Assembly (NCBI RefSeq): GCF_030056575.1
Contig: NZ_JASHHX010000027.1
Location: 1-44,030, forward strand
Direction: 5' to 3'
Origin: Rhodoblastus sp. 17X3
GTDB lineage: Bacteria; Pseudomonadota; Alphaproteobacteria; Rhizobiales; Beijerinckiaceae
Length of the DNA stretch: 44,030 nt
Below are positions 13,389-32,972 of the stretch, piece after piece (within the stretch, counting starts at the first letter, position 1; the number at the start of each line of letters is the position of its first letter). The notes under the pieces were generated by a model that was not told the origin of the DNA, made no database searches, and was given only the letters and a program-made list of their open reading frames with translations. Made by a program: the position numbers and the translations under genes.

Positions 13389-13487
13389 GCCATCCTCCAG
13401 AGTCTCCTGCGGCGCGCCTCGGCCGACAGGATCATTGGGAAACAAGCCACCATTGCTCTGCCCCTTCCCGCCCAGGGGCAGGAAAGG

Positions 13488-14438
13488 ATGAAGCGGGCGT
13501 TTCTCTCCGGCATTCTCACCGCGCAGATTTTCTTGGCTGTCGCGCTGGCCCAGCCGGCGCAAGCGCCGGTCGAGGCCGCGAGGCCTTTTGTCGCGGAGCA
13601 GACGGCCCCCGGCGTTTACGTCGTTGTCGGGGAGACTGCGCTTTCTTCTATACAAAATGCGGGCCAGATCAGTAATTCCATTTTTCTGATCGGAAAAGAG
13701 GCGATCGCGGTCGTCGATACGGGCGGCAGCGCCTTGGCTGGCCGACGCTTGCGCGCGACCATCCGCACTTATTCCGATCTGCCCATCCGTTACGTCGTCC
13801 TGACGCATGACCATCCTGACCATATTCTCGGCGCTGCCGCATTTTTAGGCGACAACGCCGTTTTTATAGGCCACCGCAATCTGCCGGAGGCCCTGCAGAC
13901 CCACGCGGCGGATTATCTTCGCCACGCGCGCGAGGATGTCGGCGCGGACGCATTTGCCGGCACGCGCGTCATCGCGCCGACGCTTTTGGTCGATTCCGCC
14001 CAAACCATCGACATTGGCGACCGCCCGCTGAAGCTGGAGGCCTGGCCCGTCGCGCACACCAATTGCGACCTGACCGTACTGGACGAGAAAACCGGAACCT
14101 GGCTGCTCGCCGACCTGATCTTCTCGGGCCATATCCCGGCGCTCGACGGCAATCTCAACGGCTGGATCGCGGCGCTGGAGCGCCTCAAGACGCTCCCGGC
14201 CGCACGCATCGTCCCCGGCCACGGCCCCGCCTCGATGGCCTGGCCCGACGCAGCCGCGCCGATCGAAACCTATCTGCGCGTTTTGCGCGAAGATGTGCGC
14301 GCGTCGCTCCGCGCCGGAGAGACCATCCGCGAGGCCGCCGCCAAGGCGGCCGCGTCTGAGCGCGGCAAATGGGAATTATTCGACGACTTCAACACCCGCA
14401 ACGCGACCGCCGCCTATCACGAGCTGGAATGGGAATAA
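13488..14438 (+). CDS. quinoprotein relay system zinc metallo-hydrolase (MBL fold, SoxH-like)
   Basis: 316 residues from MKRAFLSGIL, with a signal peptide ending near AQA (about residue 26). The metallo-beta-lactamase zinc motif THDHPDH is at 106-112, with later ligands in PVAHTNCDL, LLADLIFSGH and VPGHGP. The family is the exported SoxH-like hydrolase repeatedly found with PQQ-dependent dehydrogenases and SoxYZ-like carriers (quinoprotein relay system). Its substrate is unknown; a sulfur- or thioester-bound group on the SoxYZ-like carrier is a reasonable guess. The xoxF cluster starts 300 bases downstream on the same strand, and the SoxYZ-like gene is five genes on. Confidence 0.85.
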   Translation: MKRAFLSGILTAQIFLAVALAQPAQAPVEAARPFVAEQTAPGVYVVVGETALSSIQNAGQISNSIFLIGKEAIAVVDTGGSALAGRRLRATIRTYSDLPIRYVVLTHDHPDHILGAAAFLGDNAVFIGHRNLPEALQTHAADYLRHAREDVGADAFAGTRVIAPTLLVDSAQTIDIGDRPLKLEAWPVAHTNCDLTVLDEKTGTWLLADLIFSGHIPALDGNLNGWIAALERLKTLPAARIVPGHGPASMAWPDAAAPIETYLRVLREDVRASLRAGETIREAAAKAAASERGKWELFDDFNTRNATAAYHELEWE

Positions 14439-14737: not shown

Positions 14738-16540
14738 ATGAAGAGGCTTTACGCATCTCTGCTTTCTGCTACCGCGCTGTCGCTGAGTGCGCCGGCGTTC
14801 GCTAACGATTCCGTCCTGAAGGCCGAGAAGGATCCCAAGCAGTGGGTCATTCAGACGGGCAATTACGCCAACACGCGCTATTCCGAGTTGAACCAGATCA
14901 CCGCCGCCAATGTCGGCAAGCTGGCCCCCGCCTGGAGCTTCTCGACCGGCGTGTTGCGCGGCCATGAAGGCGCGCCGATCGTCGTCGGCGACGTTATGTA
15001 TGTGCATACGCCGTTCCCGAATATCGTTTACGCCCTCGACCTGAAAAACGAAGGCAAGATCCTCTGGAAGTATGAACCCAAGCAGGATCCGAACGTTATT
15101 CCGGTGATGTGCTGCGACACCGTCAACCGCGGTCTCGCCTTTGCCGACGGCAAGGTCTTCCTGCATCAGGCCGACACCACAGTCGTGGCGCTGGATGGCA
15201 AGACCGGCAAGGTCGTCTGGTCGGCGGTCAACGGCGATCCCAAGCGCGGCGAGACCAACACCGCGACCGTCATGCCGGTCAAGGACAAGGTCATCGTCGG
15301 CATCTCGGGCGGCGAATTCGGCGTTCAGTGCCATGTGACCGCCTATGACATCAATAGCGGCAAGCGTGTCTGGCGCGCCTATTCCGTCGGTACGGACGAT
15401 CAGATCCTGCTCGATCCGGAAAAGACCACCGTGCTCGGCAAGCCCGTCGGCAAGGATTCCTCCATCAAGACCTGGCAGGGCGATCAGTGGAAAACCGGCG
15501 GTGGCTGCACCTGGGGCTGGTATTCCTATGACCCGGACCTGAACCTGGTCTATTACGGCTCGGGCAATCCCTCGACCTGGAACCCGAAGCAGCGTCCCGG
15601 CGACAACAAGTGGTCCATGACCATCTTCGCCCGCAACCCGGACACGGGCATGGCGAAGTGGGTCTATCAAATGACCCCGCATGACGAATGGGACTATGAC
15701 GGCATCAACGAAATGCCGCTGGTCGAACAGAAGATCGACGGCAAGGACCGCAAGCTCCTGGTGCATTTCGACCGTAACGGCTTCGGCTACACGCTCGACC
15801 GCACCAACGGCGATCTGCTGGTGGCGGAAAAATACGATCCGGCCGTCAACTGGGCGACCAAGGTCGATATGGACCGCAGCAGCCCGACCTTCGGACGTCC
15901 GATGGTCGACAAGCGGTTCTCGACCGAAGCCAATGGCGAGGACGTGAACTCCAAGGGCATCTGCCCGGCGGCTCTCGGCTCGAAAGACCAGCAGCCCGCC
16001 GCCTACTCGCCGAAGACCGGCCTGTTCTACGTGCCGACCAACCATGTCTGCATGGATTACGAGCCGTTCCGCGTGAGCTACACCCCGGGCCAGCCCTATG
16101 TCGGCGCGACCTTGGCGATGTATCCGCCGGAAGGCCAGACCAACATGGGCAATTTCATTGCCTGGGACGCCACCAAGGGCAAGATCGTCTGGTCTGACCC
16201 CGAACAGTTCTCGGCTTGGGGCGGCGCTCTCGCCACCGCCGGCGACATCGTCTTCTATGGCACTCTCGAGGGCTACCTGAAGGCGGTCGATTCCAAGACC
16301 GGCAAGCTGCTCTACAAATACAAGACCCCGTCGGGCATTATCGGCAACGTGATGACCTATCAGCACGCTGGCAAGCAGTATGTGGCCGTTCTGTCCGGCG
16401 TCGGCGGTTGGGCCGGCATCGGCCTCGCGGCTGGCTTGACCGATCCGCATGCGGGTCTGGGCGCGGTCGGCGGCTATGCCGCCCTCAGCGACTATACCTC
16501 GCTCGGCGGCGTGCTGACGGTCTTCGCCCTCCCCGATTGA
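14738..16540 (+). CDS. xoxF: lanthanide-dependent methanol dehydrogenase XoxF (PQQ)
   Basis: 600 residues with a signal peptide ([10 protein letters not shown]...APAFA, cleavage near 22). The vicinal disulfide Cys125-Cys126 is in PVMCCDTVN. Metal ligands are Glu193 in GGEFG, Asn277 in GSGNP and Asp319 in EWDYDGIN. Asp321, two residues on, is the extra acidic residue that distinguishes lanthanide XoxF from calcium MxaF, where Ala is usual. Tryptophan-docking propeller motifs recur. The enzyme oxidises methanol in the periplasm and passes electrons to cytochrome c. No mxaF-mxaI pair is in the window. A strong 13-bp hairpin separates it from xoxG. Confidence 0.97.
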
Positions 16541-16696: not shown

Positions 16697-17275
16697 ATGA
16701 CGATTGGAACCCGCGTCGTGAAAGATTTCGCTTCAGCAAGACCCGCCCGCCAGACGGCCAAAAAGCGGTTCGCAGCCTCTCTGTTCGCGGTTGTCGCCGC
16801 GCTCGCCGTCGCCGGAGCCGCGCAGGGCGAGCCCAAGCAGCCGGCGAAAAACGACGATGGCAGATATTATGACGCCGAAGGCAATCCGACCTATCGGGTC
16901 GACGCGGACGGCAAGACGGATTGGACCACTTATTCCGGCTTCCAGCGTTACAATGCGGAATGCCTGCGCTGCCATGGTCCCGACGGCATGGGCTCGAGCT
17001 ATGCGCCCGCCCTCGTCGACTCGCTCAAGACAATGGATTACGCCACCTTCCTCGCCACCGTCGCGCAGGGCCGCAAAAATCTCGTGAATGGCCAGGAAAA
17101 GGTCATGCCGCAGCTCGGCGAAGACAAAAACGTGATGTGCTACATCGACGATATTTATGTCTATCTCAAAGCCCGTTCCGACGACGCGATTGGTCGCAAC
17201 CGTCCGCCGGGGCATGATCCCAAGGGCAAGAGCTGGCAGGCGGCGCAAGATTCCTGCATGGGCGCGCCGAGTTGA
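16697..17275 (+). CDS. xoxG: XoxG-like c-type cytochrome, methanol-metabolism related
   Basis: 192 residues with a signal segment (FAASLFAVVAALAVAGAAQG). One haem-binding CLRCH is at 89-93 and a probable axial Met137 in KVMPQL. Two further cysteines (C148 and C188) give the four-Cys pattern of the methanol-related cytochrome family. XoxG is the periplasmic electron acceptor of XoxF. The ATG at 16697 has no visible ribosome binding site; the GTG at 16718, preceded by GGAA, would give a 185-residue product with the same signal peptide. xoxJ follows after ten bases. Confidence 0.92.
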   Translation: MTIGTRVVKDFASARPARQTAKKRFAASLFAVVAALAVAGAAQGEPKQPAKNDDGRYYDAEGNPTYRVDADGKTDWTTYSGFQRYNAECLRCHGPDGMGSSYAPALVDSLKTMDYATFLATVAQGRKNLVNGQEKVMPQLGEDKNVMCYIDDIYVYLKARSDDAIGRNRPPGHDPKGKSWQAAQDSCMGAPS

Positions 17276-17285
17276 CGCAGCGCCG

Positions 17286-18167
17286 ATGAAGCGGCGCGCG
17301 AGCCCATTGAACGCCAGCTTCTCCGCGGCCTGCCTGTTGGCTTTGCTTTCCGCGGGGCCGGTTGCGGCGCAGACAAGTCCCGATCTCGTCTCGCGCGACC
17401 GCCTGCGCGTCTGCGCCTCGCCGGCGGACCTGCCTTTCTCCAACAAGGAGAAGCAGGGCTTCGAAAACAAGATCGCAGAACTCGTCGCGGAAGAACTGAA
17501 ACTTCCGCTGCATTATTTCTGGATGCCATCAGGCCCTGGCTTCATCCGCAATACGCTTCTGTCCGACATGTGCGACCTCGTCATCGGCTACGCCTCCGAG
17601 GCCGACCTGGTCGATCATTCCAATCCCTATTACGCATCGACCTATGTTCTGGTGACGCACAAGGGCGGCAAGTTCGAGGGCGTCGACCATCTCGACGACC
17701 CGCGCCTGAAGGATGCGAAGCTCGGCGTCATCGCCCGCACGCCCCCGGTCGACCATCTGATGGCGCTCGGCATGCTCGACAGCGCGAAGAGCTATTCGCT
17801 GCTGGTGGACCGCCGCTTCGCCTCGCCAGCCGAGGACGCTCTGCACGATGTTGAGACGGGCGAAACCGACGCGGCCATTCTTTGGGGACCGATCGGCGGC
17901 TATTTCGCCCGGAAGGCGTCGCCGCCGCTCGTCGCGACCGAGCTCCACACCGACAAACGCCCACCCTTCATCTTTCGCGTCGCCTTCGGCATGCGCGCCG
18001 GCGAGACGGAATGGAAGCACAAGCTGAACGACATCATCCGCAAGCGGCAGAAGGACATCGACGCGATCCTTACCAGTTATGGCGTGCCGCTGGCGCCGGT
18101 CGAGGCCGCGCCGATCCAGGGCGCTCCGAACGACGCGCCGCATCCGGAGCGGAGCGACCCGCGATGA
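17286..18167 (+). CDS. xoxJ: XoxJ, quinoprotein-dehydrogenase-associated periplasmic binding protein
   Basis: 293 residues from MKRRASPLNAS, with a signal peptide ending near VAAQ. The body has the fold pattern of a type II solute-binding protein: LRVCASPADLPFSNKEKQGFENKIAELVAEEL at the start, CDLVIGYASEADLVDHSNPYY in the middle, then AAILWGPIGGYFA. XoxJ/MxaJ proteins are found with methanol dehydrogenase genes and are thought to help activate or assemble the apo-enzyme rather than to serve an ABC transporter; none is encoded here. The stop overlaps the next ATG by four bases. Confidence 0.93.
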   Translation: MKRRASPLNASFSAACLLALLSAGPVAAQTSPDLVSRDRLRVCASPADLPFSNKEKQGFENKIAELVAEELKLPLHYFWMPSGPGFIRNTLLSDMCDLVIGYASEADLVDHSNPYYASTYVLVTHKGGKFEGVDHLDDPRLKDAKLGVIARTPPVDHLMALGMLDSAKSYSLLVDRRFASPAEDALHDVETGETDAAILWGPIGGYFARKASPPLVATELHTDKRPPFIFRVAFGMRAGETEWKHKLNDIIRKRQKDIDAILTSYGVPLAPVEAAPIQGAPNDAPHPERSDPR

Positions 18168-18709
18168 ACAGGCGAAAAGCGCTGGCTTTCGCGCTCGCGG
18201 GATTCGCCCTCGCTACCCTCGCCGCCGCCGCCGCGCCGCCCGAACCACCCGGCTATCGCCTCGACGATTACCAGTCCCCGACGCCGGACACGTTCAACGG
18301 CGAACCGGCGCTGAGCGTCGAGGCCGCGAAAGCCGCCTGGTCCGATCCCAAGACCATCTTCATTGACGTGCTGCCGCATCCGCCCCGCCCCGAAGGCCTC
18401 CCGAAAGGGACAATCTGGCAGGAAAAACCTCATGCCGGCATAGCGCGGTCGATCTGGCTGCCGGAAGTCGGCCGCGGGGCCCTGGCGCCGGAGACCGAGG
18501 CCTATTTCAGCCGCAGCCTTTCCGAAATCACCGGGGGCGACAAGGACGCGATTCTGGTATTCTACTGCAAACGCGCCTGCTGGATGTCCTGGAACGCCGC
18601 CAAACGCGCCGCCTCCATGGGCTACAGCCAGGTCCGCTGGTATTCGGACGGAATCGAGGGATGGCGGGAAGCGGGACTGCCAACCGAAACGATCGCTCCG
18701 CGACCATAA
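18164..18709 (+). CDS. PQQ-associated CXXCW-motif rhodanese-like protein
   Basis: 181 residues with an Ala-rich signal peptide (FALAGFALATLAAAAA). A rhodanese-like domain spans about 50-175. The active-site loop is YCKRACWMSWNAAKRA with Cys135, Cys139 and Trp140, the hallmark of the PQQ-dependent catabolism-associated CXXCW family (spacing here is C-x3-C-W). A rhodanese-type cysteine next to a SoxYZ-like carrier suggests periplasmic sulfur or thiol chemistry, but no reaction has been assigned to my knowledge. It is translationally coupled to xoxJ (ATGA) and 33 bases ahead of the SoxYZ-like gene. Confidence 0.87.
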   Translation: MNRRKALAFALAGFALATLAAAAAPPEPPGYRLDDYQSPTPDTFNGEPALSVEAAKAAWSDPKTIFIDVLPHPPRPEGLPKGTIWQEKPHAGIARSIWLPEVGRGALAPETEAYFSRSLSEITGGDKDAILVFYCKRACWMSWNAAKRAASMGYSQVRWYSDGIEGWREAGLPTETIAPRP

Positions 18710-18742: not shown

Positions 18743-19552
18743 ATGCTGACGAAACGGACTCTTTTACACGCGGCTGTTCTGGCGCTGGCGGCGCCCGCCG
18801 CGCTGCGCGCCGAGATCAATACGCCCGAGAACGAGGACAGCTGGAAATCCCTCAGGACCCAATTTTTCGGCGACCGTCCGATCGGCGCGGGGGATGGCTT
18901 TATCGTCCTGAACGCCCCCACGCGCGCGGAAGACGCGGCGCTTGTGCCGATCGATCTGATGTTCCCTGCGCGCGGCGCCGGGGACGACAGGGTCAAGGCG
19001 GTCACGCTGATCGTCGATGAAAATCCCATGCCCATGGTCGCGACGCTTCAGCGCGGCCGCATCGACAAAGGCCCGTTCGCCTTTTCGCTGCGCATTCGAG
19101 TCAATTCCTATTCCAATGTCCGCGCCATCGCCGAGACGGAGAGCGGCGCGCTGCATATGGCGCGCGTCTTCGTCAAGGCGGCGGGGGGCTGTTCGGCGCC
19201 GGCCGGCAAGGACCCGGAAGAAGCGCGGGCCGCCGCGGGGAAGATGCGCTTCCGCACTTTCGCCGCGACCGGACGCGATGAGGCGCAGGTCCAGATCCGG
19301 CACCCCAACTATTCCGGCATGCAGATGGATCAGGAAACCCGGCTCTACACGCCGGCCTGGTATATCGTCGCGGTGAAGGTTCTTCAGGGCGACGACCTGC
19401 TGTTCAGCATGGAGAACGGAATCTCGCTCAGCGAGGACCCGACCTTCCGCTTCACCTATCGCGCCAATGGCGCGCCGATCCGCGTCGAGGCGCGGGATTC
19501 GCGCGGAGCGGAATTCACCCGCGTCTTCTCCGGCAACGGCGATCCGGCCTGA
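18743..19552 (+). CDS. quinoprotein-dehydrogenase-associated SoxYZ-like carrier protein
   Basis: 269 residues with a signal peptide (LLHAAVLALAAPAALRA). The N-terminal SoxY-like half ends in AAGGCSAPAG, where Cys150 is the likely carrier residue, analogous to the GGCGG arm of SoxY. The C-terminal half (about 165-269) is SoxZ-like, with IRHPNYSGMQMDQETRLYTPAWYI. The fused SoxYZ form is typical of quinoprotein relay systems, together with the SoxH-like hydrolase at 13488. No sox thiosulfate-oxidation genes are present, so the carried group is unknown. GAGGAGG precedes the ATG. It closes the plus-strand xox block. Confidence 0.9.
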   Translation: MLTKRTLLHAAVLALAAPAALRAEINTPENEDSWKSLRTQFFGDRPIGAGDGFIVLNAPTRAEDAALVPIDLMFPARGAGDDRVKAVTLIVDENPMPMVATLQRGRIDKGPFAFSLRIRVNSYSNVRAIAETESGALHMARVFVKAAGGCSAPAGKDPEEARAAAGKMRFRTFAATGRDEAQVQIRHPNYSGMQMDQETRLYTPAWYIVAVKVLQGDDLLFSMENGISLSEDPTFRFTYRANGAPIRVEARDSRGAEFTRVFSGNGDPA

Positions 19553-19713: not shown

Positions 19714-20094
19714 TCAGAAGCAGCGGATTTCCGCCTCGGCCTGTGCGCGGCGCAATTCCGCGACGATGTCATCGAAACGCGATGAGCTGCGAAAAGCGTT
19801 GGCGGCCTGCCCGACGCCCTGTCGCATGGACAGCACGGTCTCCGCCTCGACATATTTGTCATAGGGCAGGATCGCGGCGAGCATGTCCTGAGAGCAGGCG
19901 CATTTCTTCAGCACTTCGCGGGTCTGGCCATTGGCGGCCATGCAGGCGAACACATAATCGGCGCGCGCCTCGGTCGGATAGTCATTGACCGGATCGCCGT
20001 CGCCGGCCAAAGCCGGCGACGCGAAAACCAGCGCGAGAATGAGCGCCCCCGGAACGAGCCGCCAGGCGCGACGCTCAGCTCTTCTTGCCGTCAT
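19714..20094 (-). CDS. exported four-cysteine protein in the xox accessory block, unknown
   Basis: 126 residues from MTARRAERRAW, with a clear signal peptide (LVPGALILALVFASPALA, cleavage near 30). The mature part has C51 in YVFACMAANGQ, a CAC pair (C65 and C67) in VLKKCACSQDML and C125 just before the end. The text is compact and helical (YDKYVEAETVLSMRQGVGQAAN). I do not recognise a named family. Its first 20 bases overlap the end of the upstream 221-residue gene, implying coupled translation. The location between xox genes and PQQ-associated genes suggests a periplasmic role in methanol oxidation. Confidence 0.78.
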   Translation of the reverse strand: MTARRAERRAWRLVPGALILALVFASPALAGDGDPVNDYPTEARADYVFACMAANGQTREVLKKCACSQDMLAAILPYDKYVEAETVLSMRQGVGQAANAFRSSSRFDDIVAELRRAQAEAEIRCF

Positions 20095-20740
20095 AGCGCA
20101 ATGTCTCCTCGAGCAGCACCGCGCCGGCGGCGTCGCGGGCGGCGATGTCGATTTCATAGACTGCGCCCGGCAGATCGGGCGCAACGCGGAACACATAGGT
20201 CAGCGTGTCGAGCCCATTCATCCGCTCCTTTTGCGGGTCGTTCCTGAACGGAGCGATTTCGACGCGCCACGCCTTCGCCTGCCCGTCGATCTTGTCCGGC
20301 GCGGTCTGCGCCTCGCGCAAGGCGGCCCGAATGGCGTTCTTGAGATAGCGCGGATTGGCTCTGAACAGGGCCGACAATTGCTGGATGTTGTTCTCCAGCA
20401 TCAGGCTGATCACCGGGTTGCCCGACATGGACTCGAAGGGTCCAGCCGGCCGGCGGTGTTCCGCGCTGAACATGTCCACCCGCACATTGCGCTCCTCGGG
20501 GGCCTTGCCGGCCTCGTCGATCGTCAGCTTGACCTTGTCGTCGAAGGCCTTGCCATATTTGGCGGGATCGGCTGATTTCTGGCTGTAGGAATAGTTCAGC
20601 TCGTCGCCTGGATTCGTATTGGCCAGCTGCGGGGCTTCAAACAGGATGTCGGCGGCGGCGGGCGGCTTATCCTGCGCCAAAGCCGCGGCGGCGTTGAAAA
20701 ACAGAAGGCATGCAACAACAGGCCCCGGACGGAGCTTCAT
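20075..20740 (-). CDS. exported protein of the xox accessory block, unknown
   Basis: 221 residues with a signal peptide (VVACLLFFNAAAALA, cleavage near 22) and GGGAGAG before the ATG. The mature protein has no cysteine. It shows beta-rich stretches with alternating polarity (DELNYSYSQKSAD, DDKVKLTIDEAG, AWRVEIAPFRND, LTYVFRVAPDLPGAVYEIDIAA), suggesting a periplasmic beta-sandwich. No catalytic motif or known domain is apparent. It is coupled by overlap to the four-cysteine gene and lies downstream of the response-regulator gene, so the three may be one unit. Function unknown. Confidence 0.78.
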   Translation of the reverse strand: MKLRPGPVVACLLFFNAAAALAQDKPPAAADILFEAPQLANTNPGDELNYSYSQKSADPAKYGKAFDDKVKLTIDEAGKAPEERNVRVDMFSAEHRRPAGPFESMSGNPVISLMLENNIQQLSALFRANPRYLKNAIRAALREAQTAPDKIDGQAKAWRVEIAPFRNDPQKERMNGLDTLTYVFRVAPDLPGAVYEIDIAARDAAGAVLLEETLRYDGKKS

Positions 20741-20760
20741 ACTTCTCTCCCTTGCGAGCG

Positions 20761-20786
20761 CCCCGAGCGCCGTGCGGCGCTCGGGG
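20761..20786 (-). terminator. hairpin between response-regulator and unknown exported gene
   Basis: CCCCGAGCGCC (20761-20771) pairs perfectly with GGCGCTCGGGG (20776-20786) around GTGC. It lies 35 bases past the regulator stop and just before the ribosome site of the next minus-strand gene. No T-run is present, so partial termination or a processing stem is equally possible. Confidence 0.6.
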
Positions 20787-20821
20787 ACTTGACGTTTCTT
20801 GTTGGAGTCAGCGCCGTGCTC

Positions 20822-21526
20822 TCAGCGCGCGGCGCTCTTGTAGCCCGCCATGTCGAGCATGAAGCCGCGACCGCGCACCGTGCTGATGAACGGCCCGCCG
20901 ACGCGCGTGATCTCGGTGAATTTGGTGCGCAGATAGCCGAGATAGACGTCTACGACATTCAGCGAGGTGCAGCCCTGGTCGCCCCAAAGCTGGTCATAGA
21001 TTTCGCCGCGGCCGACCGGATGGTTGGCGTTGTCCATCAGGATCGCCAGCAACTCCGACTCGCGCTGCGTCAGCCGAATGTGGGCGTTGCCGTAATGGGC
21101 CTGGCGCGTGTGCATGTCGAGCACAAGCTGCCCGACCTTGCGGCGCTCGCTCGAGTCCGCCGAGATCGCATGGTGCATCAGATGCGCCCGCAGGCGCTCC
21201 ACCAGTTCATCGAACTGGAAGGGCTTGGCGATATAATCGTCAGCGCCCGCATTCAGGCCGCTGGCCCGATCGGCCGCCTTGTGGCGGTCGCTTAGAAAAA
21301 GGATCGGTTCGGTCCGACCATTGCGCCGCATGGCGCGGCACATCTCAAAATCGTGATTGTCCGGAGACGGCGTGTCGAACAAAACCGCGCATGGATTGAG
21401 CGCCTTGGCGGTTTCGACCGGGTCCTCTCCTTCGCCCACGAAAGTGACGTCAAACCCTTCCGCCTTGAGACCTTCGGCGAGCACGCCTCCGGCCACGAGA
21501 TCGGTTTCGATGATGAGAACATTCAT
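20822..21526 (-). CDS. OmpR-family response regulator within the PQQ/xox block
   Basis: 234 residues. The receiver (1-115) has phospho-acceptor D51 in VLFDTPSPDNHDFEM and K101 in YIAKPFQFDELVERL. The usual double-acid pocket reads E7-T8-D9, a mild departure. The winged-helix output (about 130-228) contains IRLTQRESELLAILMDN, VVDVYLGYLRTKF and FISTVRGRGFMLD. No sensor kinase is in the window. By position it is a candidate regulator of methanol oxidation or PQQ-linked genes, like the response regulators needed for methanol dehydrogenase expression in other methylotrophs; that is inference. Confidence 0.9.
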   Translation of the reverse strand: MNVLIIETDLVAGGVLAEGLKAEGFDVTFVGEGEDPVETAKALNPCAVLFDTPSPDNHDFEMCRAMRRNGRTEPILFLSDRHKAADRASGLNAGADDYIAKPFQFDELVERLRAHLMHHAISADSSERRKVGQLVLDMHTRQAHYGNAHIRLTQRESELLAILMDNANHPVGRGEIYDQLWGDQGCTSLNVVDVYLGYLRTKFTEITRVGGPFISTVRGRGFMLDMAGYKSAAR

Positions 21527-21797
21527 CGTTACTTGCCCTGCGTTTCACATTCCCCGCCGCCGACCTTGTTTGAGACTTGCGCTCGGTCGTTCGACGCCGC
21601 GAGGATAGAGCCTCGCTCTCACGCTCACAACTCACTCATGCCCCGATCGGGCGCGTTTTCGGGAAAAAAATCTTATTAAATTCGTCTTATATTTCTTATT
21701 TTATATATGTTGGCCTGACCTCAGCCACCCGTCAGCACCTGTTTTGGCGATTTGCTCCGGCCTTTGATGCGCCCTGAAGCCGCCAAATCCGGCAGTG

Positions 21798-22409
21798 TCA
21801 GAGACGCTGCTGGATCTTTCGGGCCATTTCGAACGCGCGGCGCTCCAACAAGATGGGCGTTTCGCAAACATAAGACAAGGCTCGTGAACGGTCGTCGAAA
21901 ATTCGCTTGTCCCATTTCAGGCTGGAAGCCGCGTCGTCGAGCGCCGAAGGCGAGGAAACGTCCTTCGACTCCTGCTCGTCGCTGATCTTGTCGGCCTCGG
22001 CGCGAATTTTCTCCGCCAGGAGATGCTGTCCCCGCGCATAGCGTACGACCCCCGAAATCACCCGATTGCGCTCGCTGTTGATGATGGCGAGCGCGCCGGC
22101 GAACACGCGCGTCAGCCGCACGGACTTGTCCGCGCCGGCGCTGGCCGCGAATTCGTCGATGAGGCCGTCCATCTCCGTTATCTGCGTGCGACGCGAGGCG
22201 AGCTTGCGCGCCAGGGCTGTTGCCCCGGAATCATCGTCCCAGGGGCCCGCCGACGCGAGATCGGGACCGGACCAGACGGCGGCCGGGCTGATCTCGCCGG
22301 TCCGCCGCTGGGCGCAGGGCCAGTCCGGATCCTCCGCCGGCTTCGCCAAAGCCGGCGCGGCTATGCCCAGCAGGAAGGCTAAGGCGACCAAAGGTGCGAG
22401 GCGGACCAT
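21798..22409 (-). CDS. exported two-cysteine protein of the PQQ block, unknown
   Basis: 203 residues from MVRLAPLVAL, with GGAGGA six bases upstream and a signal peptide ending near ALA (22). The mature protein begins KPAEDPDWPCAQRRTGEISPAAVWSGPDL, with Cys32, and has a second Cys182 in SYVCETPILLERRAFEMARKI. The two cysteines near opposite ends could pair. The middle is helical and charged. I recognise no domain, but the PDWPCxQR..ISPAAVWSGP opening looks conserved rather than random. It lies 36 bases after the beta-propeller gene and is probably in its operon. Role unknown. Confidence 0.8.
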   Translation of the reverse strand: MVRLAPLVALAFLLGIAAPALAKPAEDPDWPCAQRRTGEISPAAVWSGPDLASAGPWDDDSGATALARKLASRRTQITEMDGLIDEFAASAGADKSVRLTRVFAGALAIINSERNRVISGVVRYARGQHLLAEKIRAEADKISDEQESKDVSSPSALDDAASSLKWDKRIFDDRSRALSYVCETPILLERRAFEMARKIQQRL

Positions 22410-22445
22410 GCGAATTCCTCCAGAACCCTGACGGGTCCCCAATAG

Positions 22446-23426
22446 TTAGTGCGGAGACGAAGCCACTCCAAGCGGCGACTGGCCGACGGGGATGCTCTTG
22501 ACCACCTTGAGGCTCGCCACGTCGATCACGGAGACGTCGTTGGAATTGCCATTGGTGGTGAACAGCAGCTTTTCATCGGGCGTCAGCGCCAGATGCCAGA
22601 CGCGCTGGCCGACGAGCAGATATTTGCGAACCTCGAAAGTCTCGGCGTCCACCACCGCGACGCGATTGGCCGGCCCCAGCGCGACGAAGGCGGTCTTTCC
22701 GTCGCTGGTCAGCCGAATGCCGACCGGCTGGATTTCCTCGCGGGTCAGGCCGGGGATTTCGAACTTGATCTTCTTGATGATCTTGTGCGTCTTCGGATCA
22801 ATCACCGCGACGGCGCCGCCGACCTCGGAGCTGACCCATAGCCTTGAGCCGTCCTTGCTGAAGACCGCCACCCTCGGGCGCTTGTCGACCAGCACGCTGT
22901 CGATCAGCTTGAAGGTATGGGCGTCGATGAAATGGGCCATGCTGGTTGTTTCCGAGGTATTGACCAGCACATTGCCATCGGGGCTTAGCGCCATGCCCTC
23001 CGGCTCCACCCCCACCGGCACGCGGGCGACGATCTGGTTCTTCTCGATGTCGAGAACGGTGACCTCGGAATTGTCCTCATTGGAGATATAGAGCGGATTG
23101 CCGGAAGGGTTCATCGTGAACTGCTCCGGGTCCTTGCCAGAATCCAGCGTGCGCAGGAGTTTCATGGTGGAGGTGTCAATGACCTCGACGCCGTTCTCGT
23201 CGCTGGCGCAGATATAGAGATTCTTGCCGTCCGGGCTGACGAGAACGCCGCGTGGCCGCCGCCCGACCTTGACGGTCTTGACCACCGCCAGCTTCTCGCT
23301 GTCGATCACGCTGACATTATTGCTCTTCTCATTGGTCACATAGATCTGATAGGCCCCCGCCGGCAGGGCCGACGCGGCCCACAGGCCCGAGAGCGCCAGC
23401 GCGCCCCAAATTCCAAATCCACGCAT
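22446..23426 (-). CDS. PQQ-dependent catabolism-associated beta-propeller (YVTN repeat) protein
   Basis: 326 residues with an N-terminal signal (LALSGLWAASALPAGAYQ). Six to seven blades repeat the pattern IYVTNEKSNNVSVIDSEKLAVVKTV, LYISNEDNSEVTVLDIEKNQIV and LFTTNGNSNDVSVIDVASLKVVKSI. This exported YVTN-repeat family is a regular companion of PQQ-dependent alcohol dehydrogenases. The biochemical job is not established; a scaffold or binding role is likely. GGGGAG lies six bases before the ATG. The PQQ-linked binding protein is 25 bases upstream, so the two form an operon. Confidence 0.9.
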   Translation of the reverse strand: MRGFGIWGALALSGLWAASALPAGAYQIYVTNEKSNNVSVIDSEKLAVVKTVKVGRRPRGVLVSPDGKNLYICASDENGVEVIDTSTMKLLRTLDSGKDPEQFTMNPSGNPLYISNEDNSEVTVLDIEKNQIVARVPVGVEPEGMALSPDGNVLVNTSETTSMAHFIDAHTFKLIDSVLVDKRPRVAVFSKDGSRLWVSSEVGGAVAVIDPKTHKIIKKIKFEIPGLTREEIQPVGIRLTSDGKTAFVALGPANRVAVVDAETFEVRKYLLVGQRVWHLALTPDEKLLFTTNGNSNDVSVIDVASLKVVKSIPVGQSPLGVASSPH

Positions 23427-23451
23427 TCCAGTCTCCCCGCCTCCGCGGCGC

Positions 23452-24696
23452 TCAATTCATATGACAGGTCGTTTCCGGCAGGTCCGCGCCCAGCGTGTCG
23501 AGGACCGAGCGCTGGTGCAGGAAGCCCGGCTGCGGCGCGACGCCGACGATGGATTTCGGCTGGGCGTAGAGCAACACCTGCCTCAACTGCTGGTCCCACG
23601 GCCGGAAGCTCCCGGGCGAACCCTTGTAATTGGCCAGGTTGAAGTCCGGCCCGTCGAGAAAGGCCCGCAGCCCCTCCGGATTGGCGCTCTTCTGGTTTTG
23701 CGCGGCGTCGCCGATCGCCCGCGCCGCCATCCACGCCTGGTAATCGACCGGGCGCATCACGCGGCCGGCGAAGCGCAGGAAGCGGCTCTGCAATTGTTCG
23801 GCGCCCCAGGCGATATGGACCGCGCTCCAGGAGGTCGGAACAAGCCCCTGTGTGCCGAGAACCAGCTTCGGGTCGGCGGTGCGATAGAGAAGGAAGTCGC
23901 CGAAATCGGCGGCCTCGTCAGCCACGACGATGACGTCATAATCCCCGCCGCGCGCGAAGTTCAGGGCCTCGGCCTCGGTGATGTTGTCGCCGCGCGCCCG
24001 GGCCAGCGGGCCAAAGGTCCACGGCTTCTCCGCGACGATCTTGAGGCCGAATTTCCGCGCCGAAGCGCGAAAGGCGGCGGCATAGGCGGCGTCGGCCTCG
24101 CCCGGCCCGATGACCAGCAGCGCGCGGGTCCAGCGCCGCACGAGCAGGAACTGCGCCAGCGCGTCGGTCAGCATGGCGCGGCTCGGCGCGATGTGGAACA
24201 GGTTGGCGCGGCAATCGGGACCGCGCAGCCGGTCGTCCGGGGCGGAAGCATTGAACACCAGCGCGCCCGAGGGCCGCAGGGCGTCCGCCAACTGGAGCAG
24301 TTCCGCTGCCGGCAGATCGGCGATGAACAGGCGCAGGCCCTTGTCGGCCAGCTTGCGCGCCGCCTCGACAGGCGATTCCCCGGGCTCGACCAGCGCCTCA
24401 GTCAGCTCGAAGCTCTGCCCGGTGAAGGCGCCGGTCGTGTTGTTCTCCGAGATCGCGAGCGCCGCGCCCTTCACGCCTTCATCGCGCGGGACGGCTTCGA
24501 GATCGTAGAGCGGCGGCGGCGGCTTCGCATATGCAATATAGCCGATGTCGATCTTGAGCTTTTCCTGCGCCTGAGCGCCTTTCAACGCGCCGGCGCAAAG
24601 GCAGAAAGCGCAAAATGCCGCCCAGAGGACTGGACGGCGCCGCAAAGCAGCAAAAATCTTGAAACTACTTCCCATGTGAAGATTATTCTTGGACAT
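23452..24696 (-). CDS. ABC-type periplasmic binding protein of PQQ-dependent alcohol dehydrogenase systems
   Basis: 414 residues with a signal region (VLWAAFCAFCLCAGALKGAQAQ). The body resembles branched-chain-amino-acid-type (type I) binding proteins: GVKGAALAISENNTTGAF near the start, RWTRALLVIGPGEADAAYAAAFRASARKFG in the middle, and VHIAWGAEQLQSRFLRFAGRVMRPVDYQAWMAARAIG later. It matches the family accompanying PQQ-dependent alcohol dehydrogenases. The matching ATPase and permease genes, normally beside it, are absent in this window. The start codon has no strong ribosome site; an ATG at 24675 is an alternative. It heads the minus-strand PQQ block. Confidence 0.88.
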   Translation of the reverse strand: MSKNNLHMGSSFKIFAALRRRPVLWAAFCAFCLCAGALKGAQAQEKLKIDIGYIAYAKPPPPLYDLEAVPRDEGVKGAALAISENNTTGAFTGQSFELTEALVEPGESPVEAARKLADKGLRLFIADLPAAELLQLADALRPSGALVFNASAPDDRLRGPDCRANLFHIAPSRAMLTDALAQFLLVRRWTRALLVIGPGEADAAYAAAFRASARKFGLKIVAEKPWTFGPLARARGDNITEAEALNFARGGDYDVIVVADEAADFGDFLLYRTADPKLVLGTQGLVPTSWSAVHIAWGAEQLQSRFLRFAGRVMRPVDYQAWMAARAIGDAAQNQKSANPEGLRAFLDGPDFNLANYKGSPGSFRPWDQQLRQVLLYAQPKSIVGVAPQPGFLHQRSVLDTLGADLPETTCHMN

Positions 24697-24862: not shown

Positions 24863-25351
24863 ATGAGCACTCTATGGCTGGCCGCCATGGGCTTGCCCAC
24901 GATGCTTGCTGCTTTCGGCGTTTCCGCCAGAGCGGCGCCGACTCCCGTTCTTGTGATGCCCTTTGCTTTCGCTGACGACGGCGCGGCCGATCAGGCCGTC
25001 GCGCACGCCGGTCATCTCGAGCTGATGATGCGCGAACTGCGCGTCGCCATCGACCAGAAGGGCGTCTACCGCACCATTTCGCCCGATCCGATCCTGGCCG
25101 ATTTCATCGAAAGCGACGCCGCCTGCGTGCTGCAGCGGGCGCGCGATCTCGGCGCGACCTATGTTCTCGCCGGCGCCATACAGACGCTCGGCGCGACGGC
25201 CTCCAATGTATGGCTCGGCCTGTTCGACGCCGCCGACGGCCGGCGTCTTTCCTGCTGGCAATCGACCTTTCGCGGCGACAGCGACGAATCCTGGCGCCGC
25301 GCCGCAAATTTCCTTGGCGAAGAAATATCCGCCGCTCCGCTGCCGAATTGA
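24863..25351 (+). CDS. DUF2380-like exported protein
   Basis: 162 residues from an ATG six bases after GGAG. An N-terminal hydrophobic signal ([20 protein letters not shown]) precedes [13 protein letters not shown], then [50 protein letters not shown] and [22 protein letters not shown]. This is the pattern of DUF2380 proteins, related in layout to periplasmic proteins that resemble the TolB N-terminal fold. They occur near PQQ-dependent dehydrogenases; the role is unknown. It is divergent from the PQQ-linked binding protein and 94 bases before gfa. Confidence 0.75.
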
Positions 25352-25445: not shown

Positions 25446-26021
25446 ATGACTGTCAGTATCCACCCCTCAGTCGACAACGGCGTCAGGCCCGGTCGCGCCG
25501 ATTTCGCCGGCGGCACGCTGAGCTGCAAATGCGCCCACGACCCCGTCAAGGTCACGATCAAGGGCAATGTCGCCCACAACCACGCCTGCGGCTGCACCAA
25601 ATGCTGGAAGCCGGCCGGCGCCAATTTCTCGGTGGTCGCCGTCGTTCCGCGCGACAACCTCTCCGTGACCGCCCATTCGGAGAAGCTGCACATCGTCGAT
25701 CCCAATGCGACGATCCAGCGCTATGCCTGCAAGGAATGCGGCGTGCACATGTTCGGCCGCATCGAAAACAAGGCCCATCCTTTCTACGGCCTCGATTTCG
25801 TCCATACCGAATTGTCGTCGGAAGAAGGGTGGGCGGCGCCGGAATTCGCCGCTTTCGTTTCTTCGATCATTGAATCGGGCTTCCCGCCGTCCCGCATGGG
25901 CGAAGTACGCTCGCGCCTGACGGAATTGGGCCTGCCGCCCTACGACGCCCTGTCCCCGGCGCTGATGGACGCGATCGCGACCCATATCGCGAAGGCTTCG
26001 GGCAAACTGGCGGCCGCCTGA
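25446..26021 (+). CDS. gfa: S-(hydroxymethyl)glutathione synthase (glutathione-dependent formaldehyde-activating enzyme)
   Basis: 191 residues from [10 protein letters not shown], with GAGGA before the start. The cysteine set is that of Gfa: CKC (27-29), ACGCTKCW (C48, C50 and C53) and CKECG (C95 and C98), which bind two zinc ions. Gfa accelerates the condensation of formaldehyde and glutathione to S-hydroxymethylglutathione, the substrate of FrmA. In-frame upstream codons exist but overlap DUF2380 and are not family-like. The next gene on the strand is fghA, and a terminator separates them. Confidence 0.95.
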
Positions 26022-26056
26022 CGGCATCGCGCGCCGCCAATCTGGCGATTAACCGA

Positions 26057-26098
26057 GCGTCGGAGAGCCCGGACAGGCTCCCCGACGCATTCCTTTTC
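26057..26098 (+). terminator. terminator after gfa
   Basis: GCGTCGG (26057-26063) pairs with CCGACGC (26082-26088) and inner GAGCC with GGCTC, with one A-C mismatch, around a six-base loop. ATTCCTTTTCC follows. It lies 36 bases past the gfa stop. Confidence 0.75.
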
Positions 26099-26140
26099 CG
26101 CCAGCCATTCAGACTGGCTTGATGATCCTGGAGTTCGACG

Positions 26141-26971
26141 ATGGAGACTGTTTCGACCAACAAATCCCATGGAGGCGTGCAGGGCGTCTATCGCCATGAA
26201 TCGCGTGAAACGAAATGTGCGATGACCTTTTCGGTATTCACGCCGCCGCAGGCCGAACGCGGCCCTGTTCCGGTGCTCTGGTATTTGTCCGGCCTGACCT
26301 GCTCCCACGCCAATGTCACGGAGAAGGGCGAGTTTCGCGCCGCCGCCGCCAAGCATGGCGTCATCATCGTCGCGCCCGACACGTCTCCGCGCGGCGCGGA
26401 CGTGCCCGATGAACCTGACAACTGGCAGTTCGGCTCCGGCGCCGGCTTCTACGTGGACGCGACGCAGGCGCCCTATGCCAAGAATTACCGCATGTATTCC
26501 TATGTGACCGAGGAACTGCCGGAGCTGATCGCCAATCATTTCCCCGCCGACATGACCCGGCAGGGCATTTTCGGACATTCCATGGGCGGGCATGGCGCCT
26601 TCACCATCGCGCTGAAACATCCCGAGCGTTTCAAGAGCTGCTCCGCCTTCGCGCCCATCGCCCAACCCTCGACCAGTGGCTGGTCGAAGCCGTCGCTGGA
26701 GAAATATCTCGGCCCCGACGAAAAGGCCTGGCGCGCTTATGACACGACCCTGCTGATCGCCGACGGCGCGCGCTTCAAGGAATTTCTGGTCGACCAGGGC
26801 GCCGCCGACAATTTCCTGCAGGACGGCCTGAAACCCTGGCTGCTGGAGGAGGCCTGCGCGGCGGCGGGGATTCCGCTGACCCTCCACATGCGCGAGGGCT
26901 ATGACCATTCCTATTATTTCATCTCGACCTTCATGGCCGATCATATCGCCTGGCACGCCGCCCGGCTCTGA
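26141..26971 (+). CDS. fghA: S-formylglutathione hydrolase FghA
   Basis: 276 residues, the usual length. The nucleophile Ser147 is in GHSMGGHG, with a probable Asp in [12 protein letters not shown] and His in [10 protein letters not shown] completing an esterase triad. The early [19 protein letters not shown] and [18 protein letters not shown] are esterase D signatures. It hydrolyses S-formylglutathione to formate and glutathione. GGAG lies seven bases before the ATG. With gfa just upstream and frmA at 12 kb, it forms the glutathione pathway for formaldehyde produced by XoxF. Confidence 0.97.

Positions 26972-32027: not shown

Positions 32028-32968
<941 letters not shown>

Positions 32969-32972
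<4 letters not shown>

Follow-up and report, generated by a model that had tools for sequence, protein, structure and literature searches.

By what route do a lanthanide and pyrroloquinoline quinone (PQQ) enter the periplasmic methanol dehydrogenase XoxF? This open question is raised by a 44,030-nucleotide stretch of the Rhodoblastus sp. 17X3 genome (contig NZ_JASHHX010000027.1, hereafter the window), in which three genes on the minus strand code for exported proteins of 126 (19714..20094), 221 (20075..20740) and 203 residues (21798..22409), not far from xoxF. A first-pass annotation had taken them for undescribed components of a periplasmic relay serving quinoprotein dehydrogenases. In all likelihood all three act in the periplasm as accessory factors when methanol is oxidized with a lanthanide-dependent enzyme. 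We single out the 126- and 203-residue families, which correspond by gene order to Orf6 and LutG of Methylorubrum extorquens AM1: both follow XoxF almost one for one within the order, and the Orf6 family is found in one genome of another class as well. How closely these two proteins track XoxF is new, and the open literature accessible to us yielded neither a name for the Orf6 family nor a report of its co-occurrence with XoxF.

Co-occurrence with XoxF

Two sets of genomes were searched, 397 drawn from the order and 115 drawn from the phylum. The 126-residue profile matched 99 of the 397 order genomes, the 203-residue profile matched 100 (the same 99 and genome G217), and XoxF was detected at E ≤ 1e-150 in 110, namely the same 99 and 11 others. 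The XoxF match reached E ≤ 2.6e-205 in 98 of the 99 genomes positive for the 126-residue protein; in the remaining one, G344, an XoxF fragment of 86% identity lies at a contig edge beside the 126-residue gene. The 11 additional genomes gave XoxF matches between 6.5e-171 and 2.4e-191 only, and neither the 126- nor the 203-residue protein was found in them. Among the 298 order genomes without a detected 126-residue protein, no XoxF match went beyond 1e-191. The resulting table (98/1/0/298) gives a Fisher p of 9e-94, although the genomes are related to one another. Nine genera contain both positive and negative genomes (g47, g73, g78, g79, g85, g101, g104, g115 and g159), and in each of them the 126-residue protein, the 203-residue protein and XoxF are found or missed together, which counts against mere kinship as the explanation. 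With at most three candidates scored, XoxF was the sole match at 1e-150 in 50 of the 99 genomes; the calcium enzyme thus seems not to be needed for the presence of the 126- and 203-residue proteins.

The phylum set contained ten strong matches to the 126-residue protein, and XoxF was found at 1e-120 in the same ten genomes. The order set already included nine of them; the tenth, G531, which belongs to another class, is new. Its locus comprises xoxF, a xoxG-like gene, xoxJ, a 221-residue homologue (E 9e-45), a formaldehyde-activating enzyme and the 126-residue homologue (E 5e-25), the last 3.4 kb from xoxF. A further match, in G495, covered 42 residues at E 9.4e-4 in a genome without XoxF and was taken as chance. 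The 203-residue protein was looked for in eight further genomes and found in four, those of Methylocella silvestris TVC, Hansschlegelia plantiphila, a Rhodoblastus metagenome-assembled genome (MAG) and an Elstera MAG; no match came from G531, G495, Ideonella aquatica or a Burkholderiales MAG, of which the first two only had been checked for XoxF.

The neighbourhoods tell a similar story. We inspected 99 loci of the 126-residue gene, of up to 20 kb each (44 kb for the window) and some of them cut by contig ends. Homologues were not found mostly away from xox and PQQ genes, nor in organisms without quinoproteins: 90 of the 99 loci carry a xox gene, pqqE, or a CXXCW, SoxYZ-like or SoxH-like gene, with xoxF, xoxG or xoxJ in 76, a SoxYZ- or SoxH-like gene in 67 and pqqE in 21. 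None of these genes was seen in the other nine, two of which carry lut genes. The proposal that the proteins serve a quinoprotein dehydrogenase therefore appears correct, the enzyme being specifically XoxF, whose presence they match genome by genome.

The idea that the three proteins form one unit did not hold. The 221-residue gene was found beside the 126-residue gene in only 61 of the 99 genomes, and the 203-residue protein belongs to the lut cluster (see below). The 126- and 203-residue genes lie less than 20 kb apart in 55 of the 99; neighbourhoods of unlinked 203-residue genes were inspected for part of the set. Where the 221-residue gene was found, it adjoins the 126-residue gene upstream on the same strand in 76 of 76 loci, which amount to 70 distinct places since six genomes are represented twice. 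Profiles were needed to follow this family, as a search with the single 221-residue sequence recovered 6 of 80 family genomes.

Correspondence with Orf6 and Orf7 of Methylorubrum extorquens AM1

A lanmodulin search returned 80 loci, including named Methylorubrum and Methylobacterium contigs; AM1 itself was not among them. The gene order in Methylorubrum rhodesianum (L285/L276) is pqqE-p221-p126-folP-folB-folK, the pqqE and fol names being read from translations. The 221-residue homologue thus occupies the place of orf7, between pqqE and orf6, and the 126-residue homologue that of orf6, after orf7 and downstream of pqqE. In AM1, xoxJ, orf6, orf7 and pqqE are numbered 1742, 1746, 1747 and 1748 (PMC7391723). 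Three genes, no more and no fewer, fit between xoxJ and orf6 in this numbering; by position, then, the 126-residue protein is Orf6 (META1p1746) and the 221-residue protein Orf7 (META1p1747). The AM1 order, pqqE-orf7-orf6-three genes-xoxJ, is matched in M. rhodesianum up to the third of these genes, xoxJ lying beyond the piece examined, and both homologues were present in six of six Methylorubrum-group genomes tested. The window differs in what precedes the pair, which is a lut-type block and the response regulator described below instead of pqqE. A first guess that the three proteins were MxaE, MxaH and MxaB was dropped on the synteny with orf6, orf7 and lutG.

Gene order hence leads to AM1 genes with published mutants, and the term 'undescribed' used in the first-pass annotation cannot be kept. 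In that study, growth on methanol with La3+ fell from 0.16 per hour in the wild type to 0.03 per hour in the orf6 mutant, to 0.08 per hour after a 9 h lag in the orf7 mutant and to 0.03 per hour after a 12 h lag in the lutG mutant, and its authors state that orf6 and orf7 are required only when La3+ is supplied (PMC7391723). We consider it highly probable that the window proteins are orthologous, as judged by gene order, to Orf6, Orf7 and LutG of AM1 and share their function with the lanthanide methanol dehydrogenase.

LutG and the lut genes

In Methylobacterium sp. Leaf123 (L197), genes for TIGR03863 and TIGR03866 proteins, two small proteins, a TIGR03864 ATPase, a TIGR03861 permease, a homologue of the 203-residue protein, a TonB-type receptor and lanmodulin follow one another. 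LutA, LutB, LutE and LutF were named here by NCBIfam and the receptor was recognized by eye. This order fits the cluster listed for AM1, lutA-B-C-D-E-F-G-H-lanM (PMC7391723), and the same order of LutA-to-LutH homologues was found in a second Methylobacterium genome (G008, L173). In both, the exported protein between LutF and the TonB-type receptor, which is the place of LutG (META1p1784), is the homologue of our 203-residue protein. The window proteins are 54% (LutG), 58% (LutA) and 68% (LutB) identical to those of Leaf123. Homologues of lutA, B, E, F and G at 40-60% identity have also been reported from Bradyrhizobium and Sinorhizobium strains (PMC12628762).

As in the AM1-type cluster, LutA and LutB homologues adjoin the 203-residue gene of the window: a LutB-type beta-propeller (22446..23426, minus strand; TIGR03866, 496.6 bits against a cutoff of 287.3) and a LutA-type substrate-binding protein (23452..24696, minus strand; TIGR03863, 440.9 bits against 413.6). 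In contrast to AM1, lutA, lutB and lutG are here contiguous (21798-24696). No match to lutC, D, F or H was obtained in the window, and for LutE only a generic ATP-binding cassette (ABC) ATPase was seen. The same contiguity without lutC, D, E, F and H recurs in two loci of the same genus (L007, L012). The ABC ATPase at 32028-32972 scored 174.8 with TIGR03864, against a cutoff of 302.25, and the accompanying permease had no TIGR03861 match at 1e-20; the pair was therefore not taken as LutEF.

LutEF is treated as carrying lanthanide into the cell (PMC7391723). The Leaf123 LutE and LutF (L197:4271-5907) have their second-best scores against models of DrrA/DrrB-type exporters, and in view of these scores it may be worth asking which way the transporter works.

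Next to lutA, on the plus strand (24863-25351), lies a gene for a DUF3280-type protein; weak homologues of 23-35% identity occur in 16 of 129 loci searched.

Sequence conservation and structural models

The first-pass description of the individual proteins was confirmed in part. The open reading frames and their minus strand were borne out by the translations; each protein begins with a sequence that, judged by eye, is of the Sec type and ends near A-x-A, and the 221-residue stop runs 20 nucleotides into the start of the 126-residue gene. The four cysteines of the 126-residue protein (Cys51, Cys65, Cys67 and Cys125, with the motif C-A-C) are kept, together with Asp70 and Glu120, in 119 of 119 aligned homologues. 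The two cysteines noted near the ends of the 203-residue protein, Cys32 and Cys182, are retained in 99% and 100% of 110 homologues, and Trp30-Pro31-Cys32, Arg114, Arg169 and Cys182 in 99-100% of them. The 221-residue protein had been called cysteine-free, which is true of its mature part but not of the signal sequence, where one cysteine occurs (residue 11); in its family, 61 of 70 members lack cysteine after residue 25. The conserved residues indicate that the three protein families are real.

No convincing Pfam-A or NCBIfam match was obtained with the window proteins or with 29 diverse members of the 126-residue family, 26 of the 221-residue and 28 of the 203-residue family; scattered matches at E 0.001-0.01 concerned single members and none was common to more than one. 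In profile searches of the PDB, neither the 126- nor the 221-residue protein had a significant relative. The 203-residue profile matched a designed bundle of helices best, at E 0.0025, which was judged to be coiled-coil noise.

A model of the 126-residue protein, built from 11 sequences, comprises five helices, with a predicted local distance difference test score (pLDDT) of 70.7 for the whole chain and 71-92 for the blocks from residue 41 on; its cysteines sit on helices 1, 2 and 5. The model of the 203-residue protein, built from 29 sequences, is also helical; one of its helices spans 71 residues, and the pLDDT is 85.4.

Proposed roles and alternatives

Orf6 accompanies every close XoxF in the two genome sets, matters in AM1 only with La3+ and is often encoded near xoxJ; for these reasons it most likely acts on XoxF. 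It has been proposed that relatives of XoxJ bind the apo-enzyme in a partly folded state so that the cofactor can be inserted (PMC12997753). Our best reading of the sequence data is that the 126/221 pair represents periplasmic assembly factors of XoxF. Orf6, a helical and probably disulfide-stapled protein, would bind apo-XoxF near XoxJ and help it either to take up its lanthanide-PQQ cofactor or to form its vicinal disulfide; we advance such a loading or oxidation step only tentatively. Equally tentative is the wider proposal that the Orf6 family, for which no profile model exists, is an obligate factor for XoxF loading or oxidation that two or more classes of proteobacteria have kept. The kind of XoxF served is probably clade 5. 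Orf7 could be an optional helper of Orf6, since it is found beside Orf6 in only part of the genomes and its deletion has the milder phenotype. LutG may be a periplasmic helical partner of LutA/LutB and of the LutEF transporter, acting on lanthanide upstream of XoxF, within lanthanide trafficking.

Several observations weigh against this interpretation. Absences are not absolute, as only the best-looking candidates were scored in each order genome (11 for the 126-residue protein, 7 for the 203-residue protein and 3 for XoxF). G217 has the 203-residue gene without the 126-residue gene or XoxF; the contig ends about 1.1 kb from this gene, and loci of the same genus (L080, L084, L090) carry xoxJ-G-F and the 126-residue gene there, so an assembly gap may explain the exception. 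The 203-residue protein was not found in the XoxF-bearing G531, which means that some XoxF systems do without LutG. Foldseek returned no match to the PDB at E ≤ 0.001 for the 126- and 203-residue proteins, and the structural models are silent on function. The proposed orthology is argued from close relatives of AM1 and from its gene numbers rather than from a comparison with the AM1 sequences. Finally, the accessible part of the mutant study reports complementation for lutABEFG and not for orf6 or orf7, so polar effects of the latter two mutations are possible (PMC7391723).

The relay envisaged in the first-pass annotation, in which the three proteins would cooperate with the CXXCW, SoxYZ-like and SoxH-like proteins in sulfur or redox chemistry on the XoxF vicinal disulfide, has these points in its favour: SoxYZ-like, CXXCW and SoxH-like genes occur near the 126-residue gene in 62, 53 and 52 of the 99 loci, and the four invariant cysteines of the 126-residue family include a C-x-C. 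Disulfide formation, cofactor stabilization or PQQ protection has been suggested for the relay proteins in a 2026 review, which ties TIGR04557-, TIGR03865- and TIGR04559-type proteins to PQQ and lanthanide dehydrogenases (PMC12997753). Our three proteins share their neighbourhood and their export but match none of these families. However, several loci (L080, L095, L113) have the 126- and 203-residue genes and xoxF with no Sox-like gene within reach of the locus, the mature 221-residue protein is free of cysteine and the two cysteines of the 203-residue protein are what one structural disulfide needs. We regard a common relay as unlikely.

It is likewise improbable that Orf6 and Orf7 assist XoxF in passing electrons to its cytochrome, the part that MxaD plays with the calcium enzyme. 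An MxaD homologue shows the same La3+-only growth pattern (PMC7391723), and the orf6 and orf7 genes stand beside xoxG or xoxJ in several loci, but the searches described above gave no Pfam match to an MxaD-type domain.

PQQ synthesis or export could be served by the 126/221 pair instead of XoxF, given that the pair comes directly after pqqE in M. rhodesianum, as it does in 17 of the 20 order loci with pqqE as well as the 221-residue gene. However, pqqC was found in 96 of the 99 positive genomes of the order but also in 43 of the 298 negative ones, so that PQQ synthesis predicts the 126-residue protein worse than XoxF does, and in the window's own genome pqqC lies on another contig. Moreover, loss of PQQ should stop the calcium enzyme too, whereas orf6 and orf7 matter only with La3+ (PMC7391723). 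We consider such a role very unlikely. That the three proteins sense lanthanide for the lanthanide switch is more doubtful still, for although a response regulator sits between their genes in the window, no kinase was recognized beside it and only 33 of the 99 loci showed a regulator homologue.

The genome data make a specific candidate of a gene previously left without a role, and XoxF loading becomes testable with deletion strains like those published for AM1. The Orf6 and LutG families could also be modelled and named by annotators.

Surrounding genes

The first-pass list of three genes, all of them real, left out the OmpR-type response regulator of 234 residues encoded on the minus strand between the 203- and 221-residue genes (20822..21526; Pfam Response_reg and Trans_reg_C). 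Its homologues lie a few kilobases from p221/p126 in Methylobacterium loci, and as a guess it could be MxbM- or MxaB-like. The strand said to be shared with the PQQ genes also carries the genes for the beta-propeller and the substrate-binding protein, whereas the xox, CXXCW and SoxYZ-like genes are on the opposite strand.

The latter strand, the plus strand, begins its block with a SoxH-like zinc metallohydrolase (13431..14438; TIGR04559, 369.7 bits against a cutoff of 280). XoxF (14738..16540; TIGR03075, 783.9 bits), the start codon of which was picked by eye, carries a vicinal Cys-Cys pair as well as an Asp-Tyr-Asp motif, the D-x-D of which we take as the mark of lanthanide-type enzymes. It is followed by a cytochrome c, presumably XoxG from its position and CxxCH motif (16697..17275), and a periplasmic binding protein that we assume from its position to be XoxJ (17157..18167), both identified from translations and neighbour order. 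Then come the CXXCW rhodanese-like protein (18164..18709; TIGR03865, 204.4 bits against 128.05) and the SoxYZ-like carrier (18743..19552; TIGR04557, 261.3 bits against 140).

The genome of the window contains three XoxF matches at E ≤ 1e-100, with 100, 76 and 40% identity, none of them near the roughly 50% expected for MxaF (PMC9291206). A second XoxF, 74-76% identical to the first, is encoded on another contig (L014:2137-3960), and in the 14 kb of that contig examined no lut, 126-, 203- or 221-residue genes were found.

Beyond lutA, positions 25446-26971 of the window code for a glutathione-dependent formaldehyde-activating enzyme (TIGR02820) and then an esterase that by eye resembles S-formylglutathione hydrolase. 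A formaldehyde-activating gene also lies within the xox block of G531, which suggests a linked formaldehyde step.

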